The translations under genes were made by a program, and so were the position numbers. A DNA stretch of 64,000 bases, from positions 1-64,000 of the forward strand of contig CAIQIQ010000038.1 of NCBI GenBank assembly GCA_903871935.1. Direction: 5' to 3'. The DNA comes from an uncultured Phycisphaerales bacterium (lineage in GTDB: Bacteria > Planctomycetota > Phycisphaerae > Tepidisphaerales > Tepidisphaeraceae). Below the pieces are notes generated by a model. That model was not told the DNA's origin. It was given only the letters and a program-made list of their open reading frames with translations, and searched no databases. The first letter of the stretch is position 1; every line of letters begins with the position of its first letter. Below, in pieces: positions 1,222 to 59,935 of the stretch.

Positions 1222-3279
1222 ATGACACTTCAACAGTGGCTTGACGAACGCGGCGGGAGGATTCTGGACCAGAGGGACAGAGAGTTTGCCAGGATACGGA
1301 CCGCCAAACAGGTTGAGGCAATTCGACAGAGGATGCAAGAAATCGCGCAGCGGCGTCTGGGGCCGTGGGTCATGCGGCAAGTGGCCAGGTCATCCCAGCC
1401 GCGCGTGATCAAGAATGGTGAGATCCGCGGCGACGGGTTTGTCGTGGAGAAGTTCCTGTTCGAGGCAATGCCGGGAATGTGGGTGCCGGCCGTGTTGTGG
1501 AAGCCCGCCGACGCAGTGGGACGCCGCCCGACAATCGTGATGCCCGTGGGGCACTGGTGGGAGGGAAAGGCCCAGAGCATGTATCAGCGGCTTATGCGCG
1601 TACTGGCCCGACGGGGCATCATCTGTGTGAGTTTCGATGGCGCGGGTCAGGGCGAGCGCGTAGAGCCCTACTCACCGGCCGTCGCAGAGGGCATGAGGGA
1701 TAACCGGGCAATCTGGGAGGTCACGCCGACGGATAAACGCTGGGAGCCCCTGCCATGGGTGTGGAACGATGCCCCCTGCCACGGCTGGTTCGGATGCAGC
1801 AATGTCACCAGCCTGCACAGCGTCCTGGGTGATCCGGCCTACCTGCTCGGGATTTCGCCCGCCGGCTATTCCGCCATCGCGGGCAAGCGACTGATTGATC
1901 TGCTAGTCGCTCGGCCGGATGTTGACCCGAGCCGCCTTGGCGGCTGCGGAGCCAGCGGCGGCGGCACCGACTTGCGGTATCTTCAGTCGGTGGACGACCG
2001 CCTGGCCGCGATTGCGCCCACAGGCATCATCAGCAGCATCCGGAATATCCACGGAGGAGATGCGGATCAGAGCTTGCCGGGGATCGTAGCCGACGGTGCC
2101 TCACATTCGGATTTGCTGATCTGTCACGCCCCGCGGCCGATGCTGCTGGTGTCGTCCACGGAAGACAAGCATGACGTAAAGAAGGTCGCCGATTTCTATC
2201 GCCCGATCTGGAAGGCGGCCGGGGTGGAAGGCAATATCGAATGGGGCATCGGCGAAGGCGAACATGGATTCCCCAAGCCCAGTCGAAAGATCATCGCGGA
2301 GTTCCTGCTGCGACACCTGGCCGGCGATTCGCGTCCCGTGCAGGCGAATGAGGATCGCGAGGAGGAAAAAGTATTCGAGGAGAGTGAACTTTGGGCGACG
2401 CCCTCGGGCAATGTGAGCCAGGAAGATCCTCGATGGACCATCGCCTCAATCCTGGGCAAGCGAACGGCGGAACTGCGTCGCGGACGCCGGCCATTGCGTG
2501 GCAAGCTGCTGCGTGCGGCCGTGCTGGCAACACTGCGGGAATCGGAACGGAGCGTCGGCAAGAAGCCCACTGGTGTGACAACCAGTGCCAAGGAGATTCG
2601 CTGGATGAGCGAGGGTGTCCCGGTACGCCTCGCGGGGAAAAAGGGCGACCAACTGATTCTGCTCACCGAGGCCGGTATTGATGGGGCCGGGAAAACCGCT
2701 CTTGGCCGGATGCTGAGTGAAATGGGATCCGATTTCGTACCCATTGACGTGCGTGGCTGCGGGATCAGTTCGGCCGGGCCGCGCATTCAGCAGGGGCAAC
2801 TTCTGCGCTGGCTGTTGACAGGAACCGACTCGAACCTGGCGAGACATGCGTTGCACCAGGAACGCACGCTGCTGGGGATGCGAGCGGTGGACCTGCTTCA
2901 GGCGGCGACGGTGCTCGGTGGGCGCGTGACCGTGGCGGCCGAGGGAGCGATCGGGTTTGCCGCGATACTGGCGGCATTCCTGAAGCCACAGGCATTTGAT
3001 CGTGTAATCCTGTACCGCGCGCCGCTGAGTTGGGAATCGCTGATGGAAATCGGAGGCCGCGCGCACAACTTTGCGCATTATCTGCCGGGCGTGCTGGAAC
3101 TGTTCGACATTCCGGATCTGGTCCGCGCGATGCCACGGGGAATGGTGACGTGGATCAATCCGACGGATGTGAGCGGAAGCCTGGTGGATGTTCGCGAACG
3201 CGCCAAGCCGAGGCGGTCGAGCGCAGTTATCGAACAAACGCCCGCCGCGCAGGCGCTTCGGCAACTGCTGGCGGTGTGA
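1222..3279 (+). CDS. Large alpha/beta-hydrolase, acetylxylan-esterase-like
   Basis: A 685-residue protein. Residues about 70-360 form an alpha/beta-hydrolase domain of the acetylxylan esterase/dienelactone hydrolase type: a GASGG nucleophile elbow (Ser245), an acidic residue in TED (Asp315) and a GEHGF histidine (His348). Residues about 430-685 look like a second, degenerate hydrolase-like half without a clear nucleophile motif. I chose ATG 1222 because upstream codons in the same frame overlap the transporter and are not protein-like. There is no obvious signal peptide, so deacylation of imported glycans in the cytoplasm is the likely role (inference). It lies 64 bases downstream of the transporter remnant, so the IS may affect its transcription. 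Substrate is unknown. Confidence 0.75.
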   Translation: MTLQQWLDERGGRILDQRDREFARIRTAKQVEAIRQRMQEIAQRRLGPWVMRQVARSSQPRVIKNGEIRGDGFVVEKFLFEAMPGMWVPAVLWKPADAVGRRPTIVMPVGHWWEGKAQSMYQRLMRVLARRGIICVSFDGAGQGERVEPYSPAVAEGMRDNRAIWEVTPTDKRWEPLPWVWNDAPCHGWFGCSNVTSLHSVLGDPAYLLGISPAGYSAIAGKRLIDLLVARPDVDPSRLGGCGASGGGTDLRYLQSVDDRLAAIAPTGIISSIRNIHGGDADQSLPGIVADGASHSDLLICHAPRPMLLVSSTEDKHDVKKVADFYRPIWKAAGVEGNIEWGIGEGEHGFPKPSRKIIAEFLLRHLAGDSRPVQANEDREEEKVFEESELWATPSGNVSQEDPRWTIASILGKRTAELRRGRRPLRGKLLRAAVLATLRESERSVGKKPTGVTTSAKEIRWMSEGVPVRLAGKKGDQLILLTEAGIDGAGKTALGRMLSEMGSDFVPIDVRGCGISSAGPRIQQGQLLRWLLTGTDSNLARHALHQERTLLGMRAVDLLQAATVLGGRVTVAAEGAIGFAAILAAFLKPQAFDRVILYRAPLSWESLMEIGGRAHNFAHYLPGVLELFDIPDLVRAMPRGMVTWINPTDVSGSLVDVRERAKPRRSSAVIEQTPAAQALRQLLAV

Positions 3280-3297
3280 TGGCCGATATGGTGAGCA

Positions 3298-4185
3298 TCA
3301 GACCGTAGCACACTCGCGCGCGTACTGGATGCCCAGGGCAATCTGGTCCAGTCGCTTGGGAAAGAAGCCGACGGCAACGGCATCCGTCGGACGGATGTGC
3401 TCGTAGGCAAAACGATAGGCTGCGCGCACATCCTCCTGCGTCGCACACTTGCGCGTGGCGGCCAGGATCTTGAAGGCCAGAACGGGCTTACTGGCGACGG
3501 CGATCGTGCGGCACATGGCATCGCGGTCGGCGTCATCGTAGATCTCGCCGCCGTAGTCCGCCGAAGCGGCGCGGTTGACGATCGCCGATTGCCGAATGCG
3601 CCCCTTGCCCGGGTCATAGAAGCAGCACATGAGGAAGTCGACATCCCACTGCTTCTGCTGGGCATAGTCGATGATCTCAGGCTTGTGCGAACAGAGCCCC
3701 ACGGCGACACCACAGTCGCGCATGCACTTGAGGTAATCGGCCGTCTTGTCGATCTTGCCCTCCATCCAGAAGCGATCGGTCTGGGTACCGTGATGGTAGA
3801 TGGCGTCAGCGCCGGCGGCCGCGCACACGCGGATATTGCGGAAGATATCGTGCATCTCGCTGGCGGTCTGGCAGATGACGTTCATAGTGCCGCCGGCACG
3901 GCGGTACAGTTCAAGGTAGCCCAGGCGAGTGTAGTCGCCGCGCACCACGACGGTCTTGATCCCGAGAGACTCGGCGTGCCGATACATGGCAACCACGTTC
4001 TCTGCCGTGAAGTAGGCGGACATCTCGGCATTCATTGCATCCGATGCGTGGCTGTTGCCGCAGACCGGGTTGTGGCCCACCATCAGGCGCGATACGCGGA
4101 CGTGACCGAAGGCGACAGTGTCCGTCGGCCCGGGCACCGGCTGATGCGAGCTTATCTTCGATGCGGGGGCAGTCTGGGTACTCAC
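3298..4185 (-). CDS. Uncharacterised TIM-barrel-like protein (paralogue of the protein at 44668-45510)
   Basis: A 295-residue protein. I use GTG 4185 because GGAG sits six bases upstream; the frame stays open further but is low quality there. It shares a spaced series of motifs with the gene at 44668-45510: VxRLxxGxNP near the N-terminus, a xxHGxxTD segment, VGxxxHxPE, a CC-containing strand, KPxxAxKI and a C-terminal xVGxxxxxxD. The alternating strand/helix pattern suggests a TIM barrel resembling aldo-keto reductases or xylose-isomerase-like proteins, but I do not recognise a characterised family. It is the last gene of the operon with the deacetylase, NagB-like, epimerase and dehydrogenase genes, so a role late in sugar breakdown is likely. 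Confidence 0.75.
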   Translation of the reverse strand: MSTQTAPASKISSHQPVPGPTDTVAFGHVRVSRLMVGHNPVCGNSHASDAMNAEMSAYFTAENVVAMYRHAESLGIKTVVVRGDYTRLGYLELYRRAGGTMNVICQTASEMHDIFRNIRVCAAAGADAIYHHGTQTDRFWMEGKIDKTADYLKCMRDCGVAVGLCSHKPEIIDYAQQKQWDVDFLMCCFYDPGKGRIRQSAIVNRAASADYGGEIYDDADRDAMCRTIAVASKPVLAFKILAATRKCATQEDVRAAYRFAYEHIRPTDAVAVGFFPKRLDQIALGIQYARECATV

Positions 4186-4288
4186 GTAAAACTCCGTTCG
4201 ATGCAACGACGCGCAGCCAGGGAACATCCCCGGCGTTGGACGGCAATCTACCATCCGCCGTTGTGGTGGCAAATGCCCGCTAGCGGGC

Positions 4289-5326
4289 TCATCCGGCGGC
4301 GGAAGGACGAGGCGCCGGCACGCGCACCACCTTGCCGGTGCGTACGCTCTTTGTCGCCGCTTCGACAATCGTGACCGCCCTGGCGGCGTCCTCGATCGTC
4401 ACGGTCGTGGGCCGCGTGCCAGTCTCAATGCATTTGAGGAAGTACTCGATCTCGTACTGATATCCCATACCGGGACGCAGCTCCGGATGGTGCGGCGGCT
4501 TGTCATTCTCACAGATGGTCAGCGGGAGCTTCTCACCGATCACGTAGGTGGCCGTCGCCCGTTCAAAGTTGATCGTGTACTGCATGGTGAACAGGAAGGT
4601 CTTGGACATGCTCCAGCCGCCCTCGGCCACCACCAGGGGCACATCGTCGTACTCGTAGTGGGCGACGACATGGTCAATGCCGGCGGTGTAGTGGCTGTAG
4701 CCGCGGGCGAAGACGCTGCGCGGCATGCCAAAGAGATACTGGATGAAGTCCACATCGTGGATGTGCAAGTCGAGGATGGCTCCGCCGCAGGCATCCGGGT
4801 CGAAGTAGAGCGGGGTCTTGGGGATTACGCACAGCCGGCGGAAGATGGCGGAGCGCACCTTGCCGTAGCGGCCATCGCGGATGGCTTCTTTGAGCCAATC
4901 CCACCCCGGCCAGAAGCGCATGCACAACGCGACCATGGCGACGGTCTTGGCCTTCTTCGCGGCGGCAACGTACTGCCTGGCCGACTTGGAATCCCGCGCC
5001 ATGGGCTTTTCGCTAAGCACGTGCTTGCCCTTTTTCAAAGCAGCGATCGCGTATGGCACGTGCAGCGGCGTGGGCAGGCAAATGTCCACGGCCTGCACAT
5101 CGGGGTCATCAATCAGTTTCATCCCCTCGTCGTACTGGCGTGCCGAGGCGTAGTCGAACCCACCCTGCGCCTGGCCTTCGATGTTCCCGGCCATGCGTTC
5201 ACTGCCGTTGAGGCGCCCGGGAATCTTATCGCTGATCGCGACCACCCTGGCGTTGGATAGCTTCTGGTACACATCAAGGTGTGTGAGGCCGATGAATCCA
5301 AGGCCGATAAGGCCGACGTTAACCAT
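4289..5326 (-). CDS. Gfo/Idh/MocA-family sugar dehydrogenase
   Basis: A 345-residue NAD(P)-dependent oxidoreductase. The N-terminus has the Rossmann signature GLIGLGFIG, followed about 95 residues later by the family motif SEKPMARD, whose lysine is the usual catalytic residue. The C-terminal half contains the HIHDVDF-type segment of the substrate domain. ATG 5326 is chosen because AGAGG lies just upstream; earlier codons are not homologous. The family oxidises or epimerises sugars and inositols through a keto intermediate. It sits 17 bases after the epimerase gene and 103 bases before the TIM-barrel-like gene. Substrate cannot be read from sequence. Confidence 0.88.
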   Translation of the reverse strand: MVNVGLIGLGFIGLTHLDVYQKLSNARVVAISDKIPGRLNGSERMAGNIEGQAQGGFDYASARQYDEGMKLIDDPDVQAVDICLPTPLHVPYAIAALKKGKHVLSEKPMARDSKSARQYVAAAKKAKTVAMVALCMRFWPGWDWLKEAIRDGRYGKVRSAIFRRLCVIPKTPLYFDPDACGGAILDLHIHDVDFIQYLFGMPRSVFARGYSHYTAGIDHVVAHYEYDDVPLVVAEGGWSMSKTFLFTMQYTINFERATATYVIGEKLPLTICENDKPPHHPELRPGMGYQYEIEYFLKCIETGTRPTTVTIEDAARAVTIVEAATKSVRTGKVVRVPAPRPSAAG

Positions 5327-5343
5327 GGTGAACCTCTTTGGGT

Positions 5344-6183
5344 CTAAAGCGCCAGAATCCTGTCCATCGCCACACTCGTCCGCTGCAGCACGCCGGGATC
5401 CCATGGGATCATCTCGGCGGTCATCGTGCGGTCGTACCCAATGGCTCGCAGAGCCGCGATGGTTTGCTGCCACGGCACATCCCCTGCAAGCAGATCGCAG
5501 AAACCATTGAGGTTGCCGATGGCGTTTTTGTAGTCTTTCACGTGAATGCGCTTGATGCGTTTGCCAAGCAGTTCAATCCAGTGTGGCGCATGCTGGTGAT
5601 AGCCCAGGCCATTGCCGATGTCGAAATAGATGACGGCTTTGGTACTTTTGAAGGAATCGACGAAGTCGCGGAATTCCAGGGGCGAATAGAACAGGCCGTT
5701 CCACACGTTTTCGATGCCCAGTTCAACGTTGACCTTCTCCGCGGTATCGAGCAGTTCCTTCGCGGCCTCGCGGGCGCGCTCGAGGGCGCGGTCATAGCGA
5801 ATGATGACGTCTGGCGTGATGGGGCTTTTCACGATACCTGGTACGTACAGCATGGTCTGACATTCCAGCCAGGCGGCGCGCTGGAGTGCCGCCTTGTGGA
5901 TATCGATGGAACGCCGACGCGTGGCCGGATCATCACTGGTTGGGTTCACACCCCAAGTGAGTCCGGCGGCCAGTGTCTCGACCTTTACGCCGGATTCGTC
6001 GATCATTTTCCGGTACTTCTGGCAGTCGGCCTGCGATGTGCTGGTGGATAGCACACCATCGGTGCCGATGCACAATTCCAGGCCCTGGTAGCCGGCATCC
6101 TTTGCAGTTCTCAAGGCATCGGCGATGGGATGTGTGCCGGCGAGGCCATCTTTCATCGACCAGTAGCTGATAGATTTGATCAT
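5344..6183 (-). CDS. Sugar phosphate isomerase/epimerase (xylose-isomerase-like TIM barrel)
   Basis: A 279-residue protein of the AP-endonuclease-2/xylose-isomerase-like TIM-barrel family. It begins with KSISYWSMK, carries the strand-end GLELCIG with a glutamate, a central LGIENVWNG, and the late metal-site segments YFDIGN and RIHVKDYK. ATG 6183 is preferred over the GTG nine bases upstream because AGGAG then has eight-base spacing. Members isomerise or epimerise keto sugars, inosose or tagatose/psicose-type substrates using a divalent metal. The gene is between the NagB-like and dehydrogenase genes of the same operon. Confidence 0.87.
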   Translation of the reverse strand: MIKSISYWSMKDGLAGTHPIADALRTAKDAGYQGLELCIGTDGVLSTSTSQADCQKYRKMIDESGVKVETLAAGLTWGVNPTSDDPATRRRSIDIHKAALQRAAWLECQTMLYVPGIVKSPITPDVIIRYDRALERAREAAKELLDTAEKVNVELGIENVWNGLFYSPLEFRDFVDSFKSTKAVIYFDIGNGLGYHQHAPHWIELLGKRIKRIHVKDYKNAIGNLNGFCDLLAGDVPWQQTIAALRAIGYDRTMTAEMIPWDPGVLQRTSVAMDRILAL

Positions 6184-6210
6184 GTGATTCACTCCTGTGG
6201 AGCAGACAGG

Positions 6211-7140
6211 TCAGTGCATTTCGGCTTCGACTTTGCCAATTCCCGGGCGGTAGTAATTGAACTGAACGTTGGGATGGTCGGCCAGCAGCGACATGGGACA
6301 CGAGCTGTCGGGGATCTTCTTGGAGATCATCAGGGCTGTCAGGCGCTGGCCAAAGGGATTGTCGTGCATGCCAGCGTGCCAGATAGAGACTTTTTCGGCT
6401 TTCCACGTTTCGAGGGGTCCGACGGTGGCCGCCTGCGTGGGCACACCGGCGACATACCCGCCGCCGCTGGTGCGGGCGTTCTGGATGACGGTCATCGGGT
6501 GCAGGTCCGTCACCCGCGCCTTGAGCTTGCGAAACTCCTGCGGGCTGGGCGGGGCATCCTTGTACTTGCCGATGCGCCGCGGCGGGTCGTTGAACGCCCA
6601 GTGCTTCACCTCGCCCTGCCCTCCCTGCATGACCAGACAGCGCACCTGGTCATAGCTTCGCGTATATGCATCCAAGTCGCCGGTGGGGAAATGAAGCTGC
6701 GCAGTGAGCATCCTCAGCTTCTTGTCGATGCGATGGAAGCACAGGTCCATGTCAGCCTTGGCAAACGACAGCGGGTGACTGACCGGGACGGGTTTGCCCT
6801 CTTCCACCCACTCATCCATCCCCCAGAAGTGGGCGCTGCGCACGTCAAGTTCCAAGGCATTCACGATGCGCGCCACCAGCGGCAACTGCTCGGTGGGCCC
6901 GATCGGCCCGCAGATTCCCGCGGGATTATCGGGCGTGGACTGCCGCCAGGCCTGGATGTATTCCAGCGCCTCGGCCAGATAAAAGTCTTCCAGCGTCTCG
7001 TAGAACACGACCTTGAAGCCTGGACGCGAAAGCTGGAGAAGGTCTTTCTCCTTCAATCTCGCGGCATCGGCAAGCAACTTGGGGTCCAACGTTGTGTAAT
7101 CCCACCAATCGGGGGCGACTTTACTGATCGGGCGAGCCAT
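6211..7140 (-). CDS. Divergent glucosamine-6-phosphate deaminase-like protein (NagB family)
   Basis: A 309-residue protein of the NagB/sugar isomerase fold. GMDEW (residues 107-111) matches the MDEY motif of NagB, and [14 protein letters not shown] (173-186) matches the active-site loop GG.G.DGHIAFNEP. By my alignment His180 is kept, but the catalytic aspartate of that loop is Val178 and the following glutamate is Asp185. The protein is also longer than NagB at its N-terminus (about 35 residues before the fold) and late loops. ATG 7140 has GAAGGAG upstream. Adjacent to a PIG-L deacetylase, it probably acts on a deacetylated amino sugar, but the changed residue makes the classical reaction uncertain. 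Confidence 0.78.
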
Positions 7141-7159
7141 GGTGCGCGGATCTCCTTCT

Positions 7160-7924
7160 TTAGATGACGGCTCCCCCCTGCTTCCGGGTTCCAAATAGTT
7201 CCTGGAGCAGGTCGCTGTGCGGATAGGCGTGCCCGCGGTGCTGGACGAACCCCTCGGCATAGTCCGCACCGATGAGTTGCCCGCGGTGCCGGCCATGGCG
7301 TTTCATGGCCTCGAGGTACTCATCCATCCCATGATGCGCCCGCAGCCACTCGCGCTGGCTGGCGTGACACGCGAGCATTTCGGCCTTGCGGTCGATGACG
7401 CTGGAGACATCCACCAGCGTCGTCGGCGTCACGGGATTGCCCAGTGCATCTCGCCCGTCCATCGGGTCGCAGTAATAGAAATGTGGCACGACGGAGTCGG
7501 GAGAGCGCGGCATCTGCGATACGTTGGGCGCTCCATACAGGAACGTCGCCGCCCTCGCTACCAGCGAGCACTGCTCGTGGTCCATCATGTAGTCTTTGGG
7601 CGCGTGCGAAAACACAAGGTTTGGCGTAATGCACCGGAACAGGTCATAGGCTTTCTGGATCGTAGTTCTGTCATACACGACCAGTCCGTCGCGCTCGTTG
7701 AGGCAGTGGTAGGTGCCGTCTACCAGGCTGGCACTCTTGGCGGCCTCTTTGGTCCGGAGTGAGGAGATATCGAAGGCATTCTGAGTCATCGACCCGCAGT
7801 CGCCGGGCGTGCAGGTGGCGATGTGCACCTGCCAGCCGCGGCCGGCGAGTTGGATGAGGGTTCCAGCGCACAGGATCTCGGCGTCATCCGGGTGGGCCAT
7901 GAAGGCCAAGGCAACCTTGTTCAT
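7160..7924 (-). CDS. PIG-L/LmbE-family zinc deacetylase
   Basis: A 254-residue protein with the family's metal motif AHPDDAE (residues 10-16) near the N-terminus and MMDHEQ further on, where the third zinc ligand lies. The family removes N-acetyl groups from GlcNAc conjugates. It is the first gene of the minus-strand operon, 19 bases ahead of the NagB-like gene, so N-acetyl-sugar deacetylation before deamination is the simplest reading. AAAGAGACC precedes the ATG. In Bacteroidetes, PIG-L and NagB-like domains are found fused in one protein, which supports the functional link. Confidence 0.88.
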
Positions 7925-8058
7925 GCGTGGTCTCTTTCAGACATTGGTGCCCTGAATAGGGCCGATCAATGGTGGCGCTGCCTTTGCACTTTGTCAATTG
8001 GATATCGCTCGCTCAAGCCGAGATTTCACTGGCTAAACCGACACGGTCGAATATCATC

Positions 8059-8079
8059 ACCAACATCGCCAGCGTTGGT
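8059..8079. promoter_or_regulatory. Inverted repeat between divergent sugar operons, possible operator
   Basis: ACCAAC (8059-8064) and GTTGGT (8074-8079) form a perfect six-base inverted repeat with a nine-base spacer. It lies in the 231-base divergent region between the deacetylase operon (start 7924) and the secreted glycoside hydrolase (start 8156), which is where a shared repressor would bind. No regulator gene is adjacent. A match of this size can occur by chance. Nothing else stands out in this intergenic stretch. Confidence 0.3.
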
Positions 8080-8155
8080 CGTTAGTAAACGGCCATCCAT
8101 GAAGTCCCGGTCACGGGGCTCGGCGGATATCCAGGCATACCAACGGGAGCGGTTT

Positions 8156-10258
8156 ATGGTGCGAAGCATCTTCGTTCTGGCCGGCATCCTCCTCACAGGA
8201 GTGGCAACCACTATGGCAGATCAGAATCTCCTGACACTGGGCAATGGACTGGATGCCGCCAACGTAACCAGCCGCAACGGCGCCAAGCTGAGCGTCGAGC
8301 AAGGGGTTCTGCGCATCACGACGGCAGCTCCCTCGGATGAACCGGGCTTCACGCTGAAGCCGACACAAGGCAAATGGGATCTGTCGGACCAGCTTTACGT
8401 CGCCGTAGACGTCCGCAATACCGACCAGCGGCCGGTCACGGTGCGCTGCCGACTGATGAGTCCGAGAAAGACGGCAGGACAATTCGACACTGCCGGCCAA
8501 CATATCTCCCTTGCGCCCGGCCAGAGCGGCACGATCAAGGTTTGGATCCCGCGCGGCACGCCGGAGTGGTCAAAGGTGCAGCTCTTTGGCATGCGCGGCT
8601 ATCCGTGGGGCATGTCGCTGGATTACAAGGACAGCGCTGGATTTGCCAGGAACGTGACGGGGCTGCAGGTGTTCCAGCTTTCCGTTAAGGGATCGCAGAC
8701 GTTTGACGTCACGGCCATTCGAGCGGCCGGTGAGCCGGTCAAGCCCACCCAACTGCTGGCCGACCCGGACCAGTTCTTCCCCTTCATCGACGAGTTCGGG
8801 CAGTACATCCATGCTGACTGGCCGGGCAAGACGCATTCGGTGGCTGAGCTTGCTGAGCACAAGTCGGCCGAGGAGAAGGACCTTGCGGCGCATGCCAGCC
8901 CGGCAGGCTGGGATCAGTACGGCGGCTGGAAGGATGGTCCAGCGCTCAAGGCCACCGGTTTCTTCTACGCTGCCAAGCATGATGGCAAGTGGTGGCTGGT
9001 CGATCCGGATGGCCGGCTATTCTTCTCCAACGGCATGGATTGCGTCACGACCAGTGAGGGCACGACGCGGATCACCGACCGGCAAAGGTGGTTCAAAGAT
9101 ATGCCGGCGGAGGATTCGCAGTTCAAGGACTGCTACCGCGATACAGGCAGCGGGTTAGATGGCTACTACAAGGGCAAGACGTCGCGCTGCTTCGATTTCG
9201 GCCGGGCAAATCTGATGCGGAAGTACGGTACGGATTGGCAGCAGGCCTTCGCCGATCTGGCGCACCGGCGATTACGGAGTTGGGGCATCAACACGATCGC
9301 CAACTGGTCTTCGCCTGCCATCTATATGCAGAAGAAGACACCCTACACCGCCAACGTCAACTTCCGCAGCAAGCAGCTTTCGGGCAGTGAGGGCTACTGG
9401 GGCAAGTTCCGTGATGTCTTCGATCCGGACTTCGCCGCCCAGGTGAAGGCGGCGATGGCCAGGCAGGCCGACACGATCAACGACCCGTGGTGCATTGGAT
9501 ACTTTGTCGACAACGAGATCTCCTGGGGCGATGACGATGTGAGCCTGGCGGCGGCGGCGTTGGCCTCGCCGGCCGATCAGGCGGCGAAGAAAGCCTTCAT
9601 CGACGACCTCAAGAGCAAATACGGCGAGGTGGAAAAGCTCAACGCCGCCTGGGGCACGAGTCACGCATCGTGGGATGATGTTCTTAAGGGTACCACACAG
9701 CCGGATGCGAAGAAGGCCCACGATGACCTGGCCGCGTTCCACATCAAGACGGCCGAGATGTACTTCAGCACCATCCGCGATGCGGTGAAGGCGGCCGCCC
9801 CGAATCACATGTACCTCGGTTGCCGCTTCGCCTGGGCCAACCTGCCGGCCGTGCAGGTGGCGGCGAAGTACTGCGATGTGGTCAGCTTCAACATCTACCG
9901 GCGCGATGTGGTCAATTACGACTACTCCAACGTGGCTGATGTGCCCATGATCATCGGCGAATTCCATTTTGGCGCGCTGGATCGCGGCATGTTCCATACC
10001 GGCCTGGTGCAGACGGAGAATCAGGCCCAGCGGGCCGAGGCATATCGGCATTACGTGCAAAGCGTGCTGAGTGATCCGCACTACGTCGGTTGCCACTGGT
10101 TCAAGTACATGGATGAGCCCACCACCGGCCGGCCACACGATGAGGAGAACTACCAGATCGGATTCCTGGATATCGTTGACACACCTTATCCTGAAACCAT
10201 TGACGCCAGCCGACAGGTCGGCGCGGAGATGTACGAGTATCGGATGAAGGCGAAATAG
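8156..10258 (+). CDS. Secreted glycoside hydrolase, GH50 (beta-agarase)-like
   Basis: A 700-residue protein starting at ATG 8156 with GGGAG six bases upstream. Residues 1-21 are a signal peptide ending TTMA. Residues about 25-190 form a beta-rich carbohydrate-binding-like domain, then a (beta/alpha)8 catalytic domain. DNEISWG supplies the likely acid/base Glu454 and GEFHFG the likely nucleophile Glu602; WFKYMDEPTTGR near the end is also typical of GH50-type agarases. Substrate is likely an agar-like or other galactan, but GH50-like proteins of this phylum are mostly uncharacterised. It is transcribed away from the amino-sugar operon and ends only seven bases from the convergent GH42-like gene. 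Confidence 0.8.
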   Translation: MVRSIFVLAGILLTGVATTMADQNLLTLGNGLDAANVTSRNGAKLSVEQGVLRITTAAPSDEPGFTLKPTQGKWDLSDQLYVAVDVRNTDQRPVTVRCRLMSPRKTAGQFDTAGQHISLAPGQSGTIKVWIPRGTPEWSKVQLFGMRGYPWGMSLDYKDSAGFARNVTGLQVFQLSVKGSQTFDVTAIRAAGEPVKPTQLLADPDQFFPFIDEFGQYIHADWPGKTHSVAELAEHKSAEEKDLAAHASPAGWDQYGGWKDGPALKATGFFYAAKHDGKWWLVDPDGRLFFSNGMDCVTTSEGTTRITDRQRWFKDMPAEDSQFKDCYRDTGSGLDGYYKGKTSRCFDFGRANLMRKYGTDWQQAFADLAHRRLRSWGINTIANWSSPAIYMQKKTPYTANVNFRSKQLSGSEGYWGKFRDVFDPDFAAQVKAAMARQADTINDPWCIGYFVDNEISWGDDDVSLAAAALASPADQAAKKAFIDDLKSKYGEVEKLNAAWGTSHASWDDVLKGTTQPDAKKAHDDLAAFHIKTAEMYFSTIRDAVKAAAPNHMYLGCRFAWANLPAVQVAAKYCDVVSFNIYRRDVVNYDYSNVADVPMIIGEFHFGALDRGMFHTGLVQTENQAQRAEAYRHYVQSVLSDPHYVGCHWFKYMDEPTTGRPHDEENYQIGFLDIVDTPYPETIDASRQVGAEMYEYRMKAK

Positions 10259-14851: not shown

Positions 14852-16033
14852 ATGACTTCCAAAGAACGAGTTCTAGCCACTATTCGTGGAGAGCCTGTGG
14901 ATCGGATCCCCGTCCACCATCTCCAGTTTTCCGGCGATGCTGCTCACAAGATCGTCGGGCGGGAATGCCTTGTCGGCGGCGCCTTCCTGCAATGGAAAGC
15001 CATGCATGCCCTGTGGAACGGCCCTGACGCCTATGCCGAGTATCGGCAACGATGCGAAGAGGATGCGGTGGCCGTGGCCCGGGCCTGCGGGCATGATATT
15101 GTGCGCCTGCAGTACTGGGCATGGAACGGCGGCCGGCCAACACGAAAGATCGACGACTACAACTTCCTCTTTGGCGATGAAAACGGCCAGTGGACGCATT
15201 ACACCTATGACCCGATGCTGGAACTGCTGTTAGCTAAGCAGGGCCATGGCCGAGGGGGCGTCGCCACATCGGTCGGTGCGGTTGTAGCCGGTGAACCTGA
15301 TGAAGCGGTCTTGCGCCAAGAGGTCGAGAAGGAAGAGGCACTGGCGGCTTCCTATGTCGCTCCCGAGGGCATTATCGACACCATGAAAGCCCAGATCGCG
15401 CGCTATCCCGATCTGCTGGTCAAGTCGGGCGGCGATACCGTCTATGTAGACATGGACTCATCGGCCGATCTGCTGTCGATTGCCCTCTGGCCGGACCTGA
15501 TTGCCCGCAGGTACATGGCTCGCGCCAGTCGCATCGCCAAGGACATTCCGCGGCTTGCGCGCTCGGGTATGCAGGTGAACTTCACCGGCTGGGACTTCTG
15601 CTCCAATCAAGGCCCGGTCATCTCGCCCGAATCCTTCCGCGAGGTTCTCACCCCGGCACTCAAGCTGATCGTCGACACCTGCCATGCCAACGGCATGTAC
15701 TACTTCTACAGCGGGGATGGGAACTTCTGGGTCGTGGCCGACGAATTCTTCAATGCTGCCGGCGTCGACGGCTACTTTGAGGTCGATCGCAGCGCCAGCA
15801 TGGAACTGCGGCCGCTTCGGCAGAAGTTCCCAAAGACAACGTTCATCGGCAATATCCGCGTCCAGGTGCTGCATTTGGGCACCAAGGAAGATGTGAAGCG
15901 TGAAGTCATGGATTGCCTGGAAGCGGCTCACGATCTGGGCGGAATCATCGTCGGAGCATCAAACATGATCATGCCCGGCACACCCCCCGACAACATTCAC
16001 ACCATGCTTGATGTAATAGAGAAGAACCGATAA
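14852..16033 (+). CDS. Uroporphyrinogen-decarboxylase-like protein, sugar-cluster type
   Basis: A 393-residue protein of the URO-D/corrinoid-methyltransferase TIM-barrel superfamily. It opens with the typical SKERVLATIRGEPVDRIPV and contains YVDMDSSADLLSIALWPDLIARRY and the FTGWDFCSNQGPVISPESFREVLTP segment seen in these paralogues. Nothing else nearby belongs to haem synthesis, so decarboxylation of uroporphyrinogen is unlikely. Its place ahead of a Gfo/Idh/MocA dehydrogenase and an isochorismatase-fold hydrolase points to sugar metabolism or methyl transfer. ATG 14852 has only a weak GGAAA upstream. Function is unknown. Confidence 0.82.
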   Translation: MTSKERVLATIRGEPVDRIPVHHLQFSGDAAHKIVGRECLVGGAFLQWKAMHALWNGPDAYAEYRQRCEEDAVAVARACGHDIVRLQYWAWNGGRPTRKIDDYNFLFGDENGQWTHYTYDPMLELLLAKQGHGRGGVATSVGAVVAGEPDEAVLRQEVEKEEALAASYVAPEGIIDTMKAQIARYPDLLVKSGGDTVYVDMDSSADLLSIALWPDLIARRYMARASRIAKDIPRLARSGMQVNFTGWDFCSNQGPVISPESFREVLTPALKLIVDTCHANGMYYFYSGDGNFWVVADEFFNAAGVDGYFEVDRSASMELRPLRQKFPKTTFIGNIRVQVLHLGTKEDVKREVMDCLEAAHDLGGIIVGASNMIMPGTPPDNIHTMLDVIEKNR

Positions 16034-40592: not shown

Positions 40593-41777
40593 CTAGCGGG
40601 TCTTCTGCCATTCGTCGATGAATACCCGCACGTTCTCCCAGGTTCGTGGGGCATCAACGGTCAGATTATCCACCGGCGAAAGAATGAAACTATCCGGTCC
40701 CAGGGTGGCAATGGCCTGGCGGATGGCGGATCGCACCTCAGCTTCGCTGCCCATCTCCACCGTTATCGCGCCGGAAACGCCTCCCCATAGACAGACCTTG
40801 CCTGCGAGCGTCTTTCGCATCAAGGGCATATCCGTGTGCGTGCCCTGAATGGGGTCAATGGCCACCAATGCATCAATGCCCGCTTCTGCATAACAGTCCA
40901 ACATGGGCACGGTGCCGCTGGTGCAGATATAGGCGAACTTCGCTCCATACTGATGGGCCAGATCCGCTTCGGCCTTGAGGATCGGCAGCATGTATTGCCG
41001 GTAGAAGGCAGGTGTAACGAAATCGCACCCTTCATACCAGGCGCGGCGGAAATAGAGATCAACCTTGCTCTCAAGCACAACCTTCATGCGCGCCATATTC
41101 CACTGGTGAATGCGCTGCAATAAGGCTTCCATGAACTCCGGATTCTCCATCGCGGCGGCCATTGGCGGCTCCATGCCCATCAGCCAGTTACACATATCCC
41201 AGCCGACGCCCCAGCCTCCGGAGAGCAGAATCTGATGCTGGTTGCAGAACGCGGCAGCTTCCCTGGCTTCCTGACGGAACGCGGAGATATCCTCAGAATT
41301 GGGCGGCACAAGCAGGTATTCCAAGGCCGCCAGATCATCGGGTTGCGTGACCAGAAACTTGGTTGAGCGGGGTACCTGGTAATCGTCAAGAAAAGGGATG
41401 TGATTGCCATGAGGCCAATCGTCGGAAAGTGCCACCACCGACGTTAAGGAACCGGCCGGCGTCTGATATTCCTTGTGCAACATCACCTGGCCATCGGGCA
41501 GCGTCTCGCGCCTTTCCACCGTGCGCACGGCGGAACTGATACGCACCGGCAAGCCGCGCAGGTCCGGATGATCCGGCCGGGTATGCCGCGGCGCGGTAGG
41601 AATAAAGAGCATGGAATCGAGGCCCATCTCCAGCTCGGCCAACGCAATCTTGTAGCGGTCTTCGTTGTGCCTCTTGCGCAAGGCGGTAAAACTCATGAAA
41701 CAGCAGGGAATGTGGTCGACCTGCTGTTTGCTCAGCGCGCCCAGCATCCGCTCCCGAGAAGTCATCGTCTTTGCCAT
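40593..41777 (-). CDS. Uroporphyrinogen-decarboxylase-like protein, second copy
   Basis: A 394-residue URO-D-superfamily TIM barrel. It starts TSRERMLGALSKQQVDHIP, has RRAWYEGCDFVTPAFYRQYMLP and KAEADLAHQYGAKFAYICTSGT, and ends CLWGGVSGAITVEMGS with SPVDNLTVDAPRTWENVRVF. It is distantly related to the protein at 14852-16033 and is not a haem-pathway enzyme by context. It is 25 bases downstream of the SGNH hydrolase on the same strand. Function is unknown. Confidence 0.82.
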   Translation of the reverse strand: MAKTMTSRERMLGALSKQQVDHIPCCFMSFTALRKRHNEDRYKIALAELEMGLDSMLFIPTAPRHTRPDHPDLRGLPVRISSAVRTVERRETLPDGQVMLHKEYQTPAGSLTSVVALSDDWPHGNHIPFLDDYQVPRSTKFLVTQPDDLAALEYLLVPPNSEDISAFRQEAREAAAFCNQHQILLSGGWGVGWDMCNWLMGMEPPMAAAMENPEFMEALLQRIHQWNMARMKVVLESKVDLYFRRAWYEGCDFVTPAFYRQYMLPILKAEADLAHQYGAKFAYICTSGTVPMLDCYAEAGIDALVAIDPIQGTHTDMPLMRKTLAGKVCLWGGVSGAITVEMGSEAEVRSAIRQAIATLGPDSFILSPVDNLTVDAPRTWENVRVFIDEWQKTR

Positions 41778-44667: not shown

Positions 44668-45510
44668 ATGACTCAAAACCTCCCAAGCGTGAACTTCTGT
44701 GGAATGGATGTCACCCGGCTGATCATCGGCGCCAACCCCTTTGGCGGCTTTAGCCACCAGAACGAAAAACGCGACGCCGAGATGGTGAAATACCACACGG
44801 TTGAGCGCATCCTCGAAACCTGGGCTCGCGCCGAGGCGGCCGGCATCAACACCATGATCACCAACAACGAGTCGCCACATGTTGTTGAGGCGGTGCGAAA
44901 GTACTTCGCCGGCGGCGGCAAGCTTCAGTGGATCGCCCAGGTGAACTGCCGCGAGCCTGCCCAGATGCCCCGAATGATCGAGGAAGTGGTGGAGATCGGC
45001 TGCAGTGCCATGTACTTCCACGGCGCCCTCACCGACCGAGCCTACGCGGCCAAAGATGCCGCCTCGATCCGCGACTGGTGCAAGCGCGCCAGGTCCCTGG
45101 GTGTGCCCGTCGGTGTCGCCGGCCATGCGCCCGAAGCGCATCTGTGGGTGGATTCGCTGAATGTGACGGACTTCCACACGGTCTGCTGCTTCAACTGCGG
45201 CAGCCTGCACGATGGCAAGGGTGAGAGGTTCCAGCTCAAGGACATCTCCCGCGCCATGGAAGCGATCCGGAAGATCCAGAAGCCCTGTATCGCCTACAAG
45301 ATCATGGGCTCCGGCCGCCTGGATGCCAGGATGGCCTTCGAATACGCCTTCGAGCAGATCAAACCCGGCGATGTGGTCAATGTCGGCATGCACCGCGGCG
45401 ACCGCGATGACATGGTCGAGGTCAACGCATCGATGGTGCGAGAGATCCTGGGCGCGAGGGGCGCGGGCGTGGAAACGCCTGAGCTCGCCGGGGCTGCTTC
45501 CGCCCGATAA
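44668..45510 (+). CDS. Uncharacterised TIM-barrel-like protein (paralogue of 3298-4185)
   Basis: A 280-residue protein, starting at ATG 44668 (ATG 44659 also possible; no clear ribosome binding site). It begins NFCGMDVTRLIIGANPFGGF, and shares with 3298-4185 the spaced motifs GxNP, FHGALTD, VGVAGHAPE, VCCFN, KPCIAYKIMGSGR and VVNVGMHRGDRDDM. The start resembles aldo-keto reductase or URO-D-like barrels, but I know of no characterised member. It precedes ddl by 34 bases on the same strand. Confidence 0.75.
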   Translation: MTQNLPSVNFCGMDVTRLIIGANPFGGFSHQNEKRDAEMVKYHTVERILETWARAEAAGINTMITNNESPHVVEAVRKYFAGGGKLQWIAQVNCREPAQMPRMIEEVVEIGCSAMYFHGALTDRAYAAKDAASIRDWCKRARSLGVPVGVAGHAPEAHLWVDSLNVTDFHTVCCFNCGSLHDGKGERFQLKDISRAMEAIRKIQKPCIAYKIMGSGRLDARMAFEYAFEQIKPGDVVNVGMHRGDRDDMVEVNASMVREILGARGAGVETPELAGAASAR

Positions 45511-58303: not shown

Positions 58304-59935
58304 TCACCGTACTCGCGGGGTCCGGCCCATTCCGACATCGCCTCGCGCCGGCATCCCATCGTCGCGCCGATAGTTCACCCCCAGCCGATCCAGCCGATCC
58401 ATGTGCTTGCTCAGCCTGCCACTGAAATCCTCCCACTTCCGCTCGCCAGTGGTCCACGCCACCTCAGCCATCGCGCAGGCCCGCGGAAACGTCATATACG
58501 TCAGCTTATCCCACGACCAGATGTACTCACCCCATAGCTGCGCCTCACACCCCAACACGTTCTTCGCCTGCTCGGCGCTGACCCCATCCGGCACCGGCTC
58601 CAACTCATACACCTTCTGCGTTGTAAGCGAGGCGCCAATCACCTCGAACTCCGGTTTCGCCGGCGTATTTTCCTGCCCATAGTCAAAATAGAGATGACTC
58701 GTCGGCGCCATCACCACCTGATTGCCCCGATCCAGCGCATGCCGTGCCCACTTCCAGTCGCGCCAGACCATCATCGTCGCCGTCGGCGAGAGTCCACCCT
58801 CCTGGATCTCATCCCACCCGATCAGCCGCTTCCCACGGGCGTGCAGCATCTCCTCCACCCGGCGGACAAACCACGCCTGCAGTTCATGCTCATCTTTCAG
58901 CCCGTTGCTCTGCATCACATCCTGCGCCACCGCCGACTTCTGCCACTGCGTCTTGGGCGCCTCATCGCCGCCGATATGCACATACTCGCCCGGAAACAGC
59001 GGCAGCAGTTCATCGAACACATGCCCAATGAACTCAAATGTCTTGGCGGTGGGGTTGAGTGTGTTCTCATGCACACTCCAATGCGGGGAAACGGCCGACA
59101 CCGTCAACCCCGGCACATCCTGGTTGCCCAGTTCCGGATACGCCGCGATCGCCGCCGTAGAGTGGCCGGGCATCTCGATTTCCGGCACCACCGTAATGAA
59201 CCGCTCTCCCGCATACGCGACAATCCGTTTCAGGTCCTCCTGCGTATAGAACCCGCCATAGGGAATCCCATCGCCGCTCTTGCGATCCCCCATCTTGGGC
59301 GATTCCGCTCGCCACGCTCCCACTTCCGTCAGTTTCGGATATCGCTTGACCTCCACCCGCCACCCCTGGTCTTCGGTCAGGTGCATGTGAAACGTGTTCA
59401 ACTTGTGCAGCGCCATCAGATCCAGCAGGCGAAGAATCTCCTCAACACTGAAGAAATGCCTCCCCACATCAAGCTGCAATCCCCGCCACGCAAACCGCGG
59501 CCAATCCTCGACCACCCCCGCCGGCACGCTCCACGCGCTGCCTCCCGCACTCTGGGCAAGTTGTGCCAAGGTCTGCACGCCATTGAAAAGCCCATGCCCC
59601 GTCCGCGCTGCAATCTCCACCCGCCGTTCGTTCACACTGAGCCGATACCCCTCGCGTTGGCTCAACTCCCCGCCATCGTTCTTCATCCCTGCATCAAGCT
59701 TCAGCACCACCCCATCCCCCTCGCGACCATCCACACCGGCCAGTTGCATGCCGGTTAGCCGCTTGATTCCTGCCACCAGGTGCTGGGCAACTGCCTGGGC
59801 CTCGTTACCTCCCAGCGCATGCACCGCCATCCGCGGCTGCAGTGCAAATGGCGCAGTTCCACTCAAGGACACCCGCACTGGACGGGGAATCACGTTCACC
59901 TGGCCATGCCGCTCTGCACTCATACTCATACTCAT
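58304..59935 (-). CDS. Beta-N-acetylhexosaminidase (GH20)
   Basis: A 543-residue GH20 hexosaminidase. The catalytic Asp324-Glu325 pair is in HIGGDEAPK; HMHLTEDQGWRVE, EIEMPGHS and CEAQLWGEYI complete the active site, with an N-terminal support domain to about residue 145. It has no clear signal peptide, so it may act in the cytoplasm. Three ATGs repeat at the start; 59929 has the best ribosome binding site spacing. It fits the amino-sugar theme of the window. Confidence 0.93.
   Translation of the reverse strand: MSMSMSAERHGQVNVIPRPVRVSLSGTAPFALQPRMAVHALGGNEAQAVAQHLVAGIKRLTGMQLAGVDGREGDGVVLKLDAGMKNDGGELSQREGYRLSVNERRVEIAARTGHGLFNGVQTLAQLAQSAGGSAWSVPAGVVEDWPRFAWRGLQLDVGRHFFSVEEILRLLDLMALHKLNTFHMHLTEDQGWRVEVKRYPKLTEVGAWRAESPKMGDRKSGDGIPYGGFYTQEDLKRIVAYAGERFITVVPEIEMPGHSTAAIAAYPELGNQDVPGLTVSAVSPHWSVHENTLNPTAKTFEFIGHVFDELLPLFPGEYVHIGGDEAPKTQWQKSAVAQDVMQSNGLKDEHELQAWFVRRVEEMLHARGKRLIGWDEIQEGGLSPTATMMVWRDWKWARHALDRGNQVVMAPTSHLYFDYGQENTPAKPEFEVIGASLTTQKVYELEPVPDGVSAEQAKNVLGCEAQLWGEYIWSWDKLTYMTFPRACAMAEVAWTTGERKWEDFSGRLSKHMDRLDRLGVNYRRDDGMPARGDVGMGRTPRVR

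Follow-up and report, generated by a model that had tools for sequence, protein, structure and literature searches.

The locus lies within the window, by which we mean the whole stretch of 64,000 nucleotides from an uncultured Phycisphaerales bacterium that was analysed, and its ORF list gives five open reading frames that run on the minus strand from position 7924 down to 3298 (Table 1). The earlier note had placed a PIG-L/LmbE deacetylase beside a divergent NagB-like protein; both ORFs were confirmed as co-directional neighbours separated by 19 bp, and the epimerase, dehydrogenase and barrel neighbours that it listed were found as an AP_endonuc_2 ORF, a Gfo/Idh/MocA ORF and an ORF without a family match. 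Intergenic gaps among the first four ORFs, from the PIG-L gene to the dehydrogenase gene, range from 14 to 27 bp. A scan of positions 3000-8300 for promoters and terminators returned signals no more frequently than shuffled sequences did, and the operon limits are therefore drawn from spacing and direction alone.

Table 1 Genes of the PIG-L/NagB-like locus in the window.
Feature	Position	Strand	Basis
PIG-L/LmbE metal-dependent de-N-acetylase, 254 aa	7160..7924	-	PF02585, intact metal motif
NagB-fold protein, clade without GlcN6P phosphate loop, 309 aa	6211..7140	-	Profile, fold, tree
AP_endonuc_2 / xylose-isomerase-like TIM barrel (sugar epimerase/isomerase-like), accessory	5344..6183	-	PF01261 E=1e-36
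Gfo/Idh/MocA-family NAD(P)-dependent dehydrogenase, accessory	4289..5329	-	PF01408 E=3.7e-21
Co-directional protein without family match, module membership doubtful	~3298..4185	-	0 Pfam/NCBIfam matches

We set the start of the NagB-like protein at 7140 because its homologs share the same beginning (MxRPxSKVAP) and a Shine-Dalgarno-like AAGGAG precedes this position; an upstream ATG at 7296 was ruled out on the same two grounds. As a single query the protein yields no matches in Pfam, NCBIfam or the PDB (phmmer and profile scans), and a profile built from 36 orthologs reaches NagB in the PDB with E=1.4e-4. The NagB model TIGR00502 is matched weakly by 33 of these 36 orthologs (best E=3.4e-7, short of the equivalog cut-off of 236.9 bits) and is not matched by the window protein itself. 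The AlphaFold2 model (pLDDT 89) retrieves NagB in Foldseek with E about 1e-14 and aligns with B. subtilis NagB (2bkv) at a VIA Z of 25.5 (rmsd 2.2, 231 residues aligned) and with E. coli NagB (1dea) at 24.9, followed by 6-phosphogluconolactonase at Z 17-20. As modelled, the window protein thus has a NagB fold, with a well conserved segment, residues 1-41, lying outside the matched region. Judged by cut-off or by phosphate site (see below), it is not a member of NagB. No canonical NagB above the cut-off was found in the window's own genome (92% complete), and the few annotated members of the clade to which the protein belongs are labelled hypothetical or 6-phosphogluconolactonase.

The PIG-L protein matches PF02585 with E=3.5e-22 (79.7 bits, gathering cut-off 28.2) and carries an intact metal motif, H11-P-D-D14-x-E16 and D115-H116, of which H11, D13, D14, E16, D115 and H116 are invariant in 34/34 partner PIG-Ls. 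Family and motif point to what is probably a sugar deacetylase. Solved Dac structures are among its sequence relatives, and the named relatives with solved structures take unphosphorylated glycosides or oligosaccharides as substrates. The best NCBIfam match is BshB1 (104.8 bits), which would place the enzyme in bacillithiol/mycothiol-type thiol synthesis and make its neighbour incidental. We regard this reading as scarcely credible and rejected the bacillithiol role: the window protein shares the PIG-L family and metal motif of BshB1 and MshB but falls below the cut-offs of both (182.5 for BshB1), no BshC over cut-off was found in its own genome or in nine relatives (ten genomes searched, controls positive), and the neighbouring gene is conserved and hence not incidental.

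Orthologs of the NagB-like protein are remarkably similar to one another, with 70-83% identity across many phyla. Their contigs are labelled Planctomycetota, Chloroflexota, Verrucomicrobiota, Kiritimatiellota, Lentisphaerae, Bacteroidota (Rhodohalobacter), Poribacteria and others, with the proviso that labels of metagenome-assembled genomes can err, and two of the loci are from cultured strains: L095 of Rhodohalobacter sulfatireducens, which has the pair, and L049 of Lacipirellula limnantheis, in which the NagB-like gene has no PIG-L next to it. Of at least 588 matches the best 80 were taken as named loci, so that adjacency rates hold for close orthologs, and 71 of them have enough flank to be scored; a PIG-L gene was counted as adjacent if it shared the strand of the NagB-like gene and lay at most 2.5 kb upstream of it or about one gene downstream. 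By this definition a PIG-L adjoins the NagB-like gene in 42/71 of these best-matching loci, mostly directly upstream, and is not adjacent in the other 29 (41%). The 627 kb of flank around the same loci contain four other PIG-L hits, three of which (L032, L060 and L073) are no more than 4 kb away on the strand of the NagB-like gene and could be part of its operon, and the contrast is for this reason if anything understated. In the genomes of relatives the pair is adjacent in 15 of 20; G020 and G073 carry a 63-66% identical PIG-L elsewhere, unlinked. The unlinked PIG-L of G020 adjoins homologs of two genes that are located after the NagB-like gene in G099 and G073, which again links the two proteins.

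Co-occurrence gives a second measure of the association. Across 101 related genomes, 30 carry both genes, 3 and 3 carry only one and 65 carry neither (agreement in 95), that is, the PIG-L subfamily and the NagB-like protein are found together 30/33 times in either direction at limits of our own choosing (E<=1e-20 and E<=1e-3, respectively); the Fisher p of 6e-19 is uncorrected for shared ancestry. In one of the exceptions, G002, the NagB-like gene lies at a contig end. The coupling of PIG-L and NagB-like genes, which the earlier note had expected to recur in related genomes, is real and far beyond chance. No paper linking PIG-L/LmbE with NagB was found among the open-access papers searched.

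Several genomes retain the deacetylase with a different partner. Ten of them (G004, G008, G010, G013, G018, G023, G024, G025, G078 and G083) lack the window-type NagB-like protein, and in all ten a PIG-L 60-66% identical to that of the window is directly followed by another NagB-like paralog of about 320 aa, which matches the window family at about 40 bits. In a tree of 56 rows these paralogs form a separate tight branch within the same deep clade as the window family. There and in a second tree of 59 rows, both unrooted and with several long branches, that clade stands apart (100/100 and 100/99, respectively) from other NagB-likes, from 6-phosphogluconolactonase and from both canonical NagB and the NagB-PIG-L fusion. 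A third paralog group (L122-L124) adjoins a third type of PIG-L, and a fourth (L133, L135 and L137) adjoins a NagA-type deacetylase that scores over the nagA cut-off; at L207 the swapped-in paralog lies beside a 52% homolog of the window's AP_endonuc_2 barrel. The clade is therefore tied to two unrelated deacetylase families. Two kinds of NagB-like protein for one deacetylase, together with two unrelated deacetylase families for one clade, are hard to explain without a common pathway.

Other loci of the clade show further arrangements. At L131-L133, L135 and L137 the NagB-like paralogs are repeatedly found near a class III aminotransferase (cluster c108) and NagA-type genes (cluster c419). L103 (G021:C259, 2380-7250) encodes a PIG-L, a NagB-like protein, an SDR-like protein, a second NagB-like protein of another type and a NagA-like protein, so that two kinds of deacetylase and NagB-like pair stand next to each other. 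A Vibrio nigripulchritudo plasmid (NZ_AP027051.1; L194, 5827-6723) encodes a distant clade member, annotated hypothetical, in a cluster with a nucleoside hydrolase, adenosylhomocysteinase, adenosine deaminase, ribokinase and CNT transporter and with no deacetylase; in view of this nucleoside-breakdown setting, amino sugars need not be the substrates of every clade member. On a Haloarcula pelagica plasmid (NZ_CP126162.1; L195, 4910-6735) two divergent clade members lie head to head, next to genes for GlpR, an aldolase and sugar transport; one of the two is annotated 6-phosphogluconolactonase, a name that its motifs do not support.

The equivalents of E. coli Asp72, Glu73 and His143 are invariant in 79/79 NagB-like orthologs, and that of R158 is kept in all orthologs aligned. 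The fold is shared with the effector domains of SorC, CggR and LsrR (Z about 10 for the AlphaFold2 model), as would be expected if the protein were a non-catalytic sugar sensor resembling SorC/DeoR effector domains; the invariant catalytic residues, the far closer match to NagB (Z 25) and the lack of a DNA-binding domain make a sensor highly improbable. Around the active site, the position of Glu148 is occupied by Asp, that of Asp141 by Val, Ile or Thr, and that of G142 by an invariant Lys. The fused NagB-PIG-L family is likewise without Asp141, and loss of this residue alone therefore need not mean lost function; taken together, the changes at D141 and G142 may indicate shifted chemistry.

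The phosphate site has changed more extensively. In S. mutans NagB, the phosphate contacts are Lys194, Thr38, Ser37, Arg127 through water, and Arg159 near the lid (PMC8369159). Numbering from His130=His143, together with the alignment, equates these with E. coli K208, T44, G43, N140 and R172. The loop L-x-T-G-(G/S)-T-P is cut by at least two residues (to PVGP, PNP or GPIGP) in every aligned clade member, and in the window family it reads GPIGP with the T44 and G43 positions deleted. The Lys at position 208 is lost clade-wide; the corresponding residue of the window protein is Asp260 in one alignment and Gly264 in another, with Arg266 close by. Position 140 is Glu or Asp, once Trp, in the window family, and Arg in the swapped-in paralogs. 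Only the R172 equivalent, kept in 78/79, is left as a phosphate contact in the window family. By alignment, then, the clade retains the catalytic Asp72 and His143 with most phosphate contacts gone.

One might suppose that the same two steps operate on phosphorylated sugars and that the NagB-like protein has rebuilt its phosphate site, for which Arg223, Arg266 and Lys179 could serve. The retained R172 equivalent is compatible with this, as are K179, R209 and R266, basic residues that are invariant or nearly so, as is the related paralog group beside NagA, whose known substrates are phosphates. We nevertheless consider it unlikely, given that the whole clade has a deletion at two loop contacts and no phosphate Lys, and that the named PIG-L relatives with solved structures use unphosphorylated glycosides or oligosaccharides. 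A PfkB kinase gene in the pair's operon would fit late phosphorylation, although an early step is still compatible with it. Because most phosphate contacts are gone, the NagB-like protein probably takes an unphosphorylated sugar, and we expect that it probably works like NagB on this phosphate-free substrate. This loss agrees with the earlier suggestion of a route for free or unusual amino sugars, and deacetylation before deamination, the order proposed with it, fits both enzyme families.

With moderate confidence, we propose that the pair constitutes a conserved two-enzyme catabolic module in which a probably unphosphorylated amino sugar is deacetylated, then deaminated, and phosphorylated last. 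The PIG-L enzyme, as its family and intact metal motif suggest, would take the acetyl group off an N-acetylated amino sugar or off a glycoside of one. The NagB-like enzyme would then open the freed 2-amino-aldose, with GlcN, GalN or another amino sugar as candidate substrates, and its fold and kept catalytic residues suggest NagB-type chemistry that would yield a 2-ketose and ammonia: deprotonation of C2 by Asp109 (E. coli Asp72), an aldose-to-ketose shift and loss of ammonia. The ketose would be phosphorylated by a PfkB kinase where one is present, as some relatives suggest, or by housekeeping kinases. In the best 80 of at least 588 matches, PfkB genes lie on the same strand in the operon in 9 loci versus 1 elsewhere, with L089 and L112 among the loci where one adjoins the pair; they are absent from most loci, including the window's operon. 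Within the same 80 matches a mannitol dehydrogenase gene is near the pair in 5 loci and a DUF4432 gene in 6 (examples are the operons at L080, L081, L089 and L099), which would fit handling of a ketohexose.

The remaining window genes are less closely associated with the pair. The AP_endonuc_2 protein has homologs in the same cluster at L090 (57%), L073 (41%) and L060 (40%), and Gfo/Idh homologs recur in the same few loci (54% identical at L090). The window Gfo/Idh protein is below the cut-off of every named NCBIfam equivalog, and the nearest named models, all far below cut-off, include inositol and sugar 3-dehydrogenases. As the earlier note had it, the epimerase, dehydrogenase and barrel genes lie beside the pair, here all on one strand, but most loci with the pair lack them; we rejected them as part of the module core for most loci and kept them as accessory, and the epimerase and dehydrogenase may prepare a particular glycoside. 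A single-sequence AlphaFold2 model of the fifth ORF product was unusable (pLDDT 38), and homologs of this protein are present in 11/61 genomes with no tie to the pair; its family has five copies in the window's genome, one of them at 44686-45441(+).

These neighbours are also an argument for a different role of the NagB-like protein, as an enzyme that isomerizes or cleaves some other sugar (e.g., a 3-keto-sugar, an aminocyclitol or a nucleoside-derived sugar) that the deacetylase prepares and that undergoes no C2 deamination. The altered D141 and G142, the Gfo/Idh and AP_endonuc_2 neighbours in the window and at L060, L073 and L090, the IolC-type models nearest to PfkB (again below cut-off) and the distant clade member in a nucleoside-breakdown cluster would all be accommodated. 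The recurrent tie to two unrelated deacetylase families, however, points to the amino group, and the Gfo/Idh and AP_endonuc_2 genes are absent from most loci with the pair, which leaves this role rather improbable.

The two-enzyme module that we favour can be set against known systems. NagB deaminases are textbook sugar-phosphate enzymes, and in the NagK/NagA/NagB route phosphorylation comes first. The NagA-NagB pathway resembles the window pair in its deacetylation followed by deamination, in the NagB fold and in the kept Asp72 and His143; it differs in that the window deacetylase is a PIG-L rather than an amidohydrolase, and in that the window NagB-like protein lacks the phosphate loop and Lys208 and is below every NagB cut-off. 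The earlier remark that no NagA is evident is true of the operon but not quite of the genome, which has a NagA-like gene, below cut-off, elsewhere (G000:C44). Another parallel is the archaeal Dac route of Thermococcales, in which a PIG-L enzyme likewise acts first, deacetylating an unphosphorylated N-acetyl sugar, and the glucosamine is then handled by other enzymes.

The PRK02122/NF002557 fusion joins the same domain types (PF01182 and PF02585) in a single ORF of about 650 aa, and the earlier note took it as support for the link. Unlike the window protein, however, its NagB half keeps the phosphate loop and Lys208, and the fusion branches with canonical NagB in both trees (97/85 and 98/95). 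The window pair consists of separate ORFs from a different clade, and no PRK02122 fusion over 384 bits was found in the window's genome. In Planctomycetota the fusion was present in 9/15 genomes checked, and several relatives carry both the fusion and the separate pair. Phylogeny and motifs thus make it an analogy to the pair and not direct support. For the NagB of the F. johnsoniae chitin locus, expression failed in the authors' hands (PMC5127042).

The pair suggests amino-sugar use without prior phosphorylation, by way of an unnamed NagB-like family whose window member has no Pfam match. More tentatively, we suggest that a widespread, unnamed clade of the NagB superfamily no longer has the sugar-phosphate site and acts as a deaminase on free amino sugars released by PIG-L or NagA-type deacetylases, in a phosphate-last pathway that extends over Planctomycetota, Verrucomicrobiota, Chloroflexota and other phyla. 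If true, this would mean a further enzyme activity and another way for environmental bacteria to recover nitrogen and carbon from the sugars of chitin, mucin and peptidoglycan.

Elsewhere in the window, 50 kb from the pair, a GH20 beta-N-acetylhexosaminidase is encoded at 58304-59935(-) (PF00728, 390 bits). It scores highest among nine GH20 hits in the genome and might provide N-acetyl amino sugars. Two URO-D-like proteins also occur in a sugar-gene context, at 14855-16033(+) (PF01208) and at 40593-41777(-), the latter recognized by sequence only.
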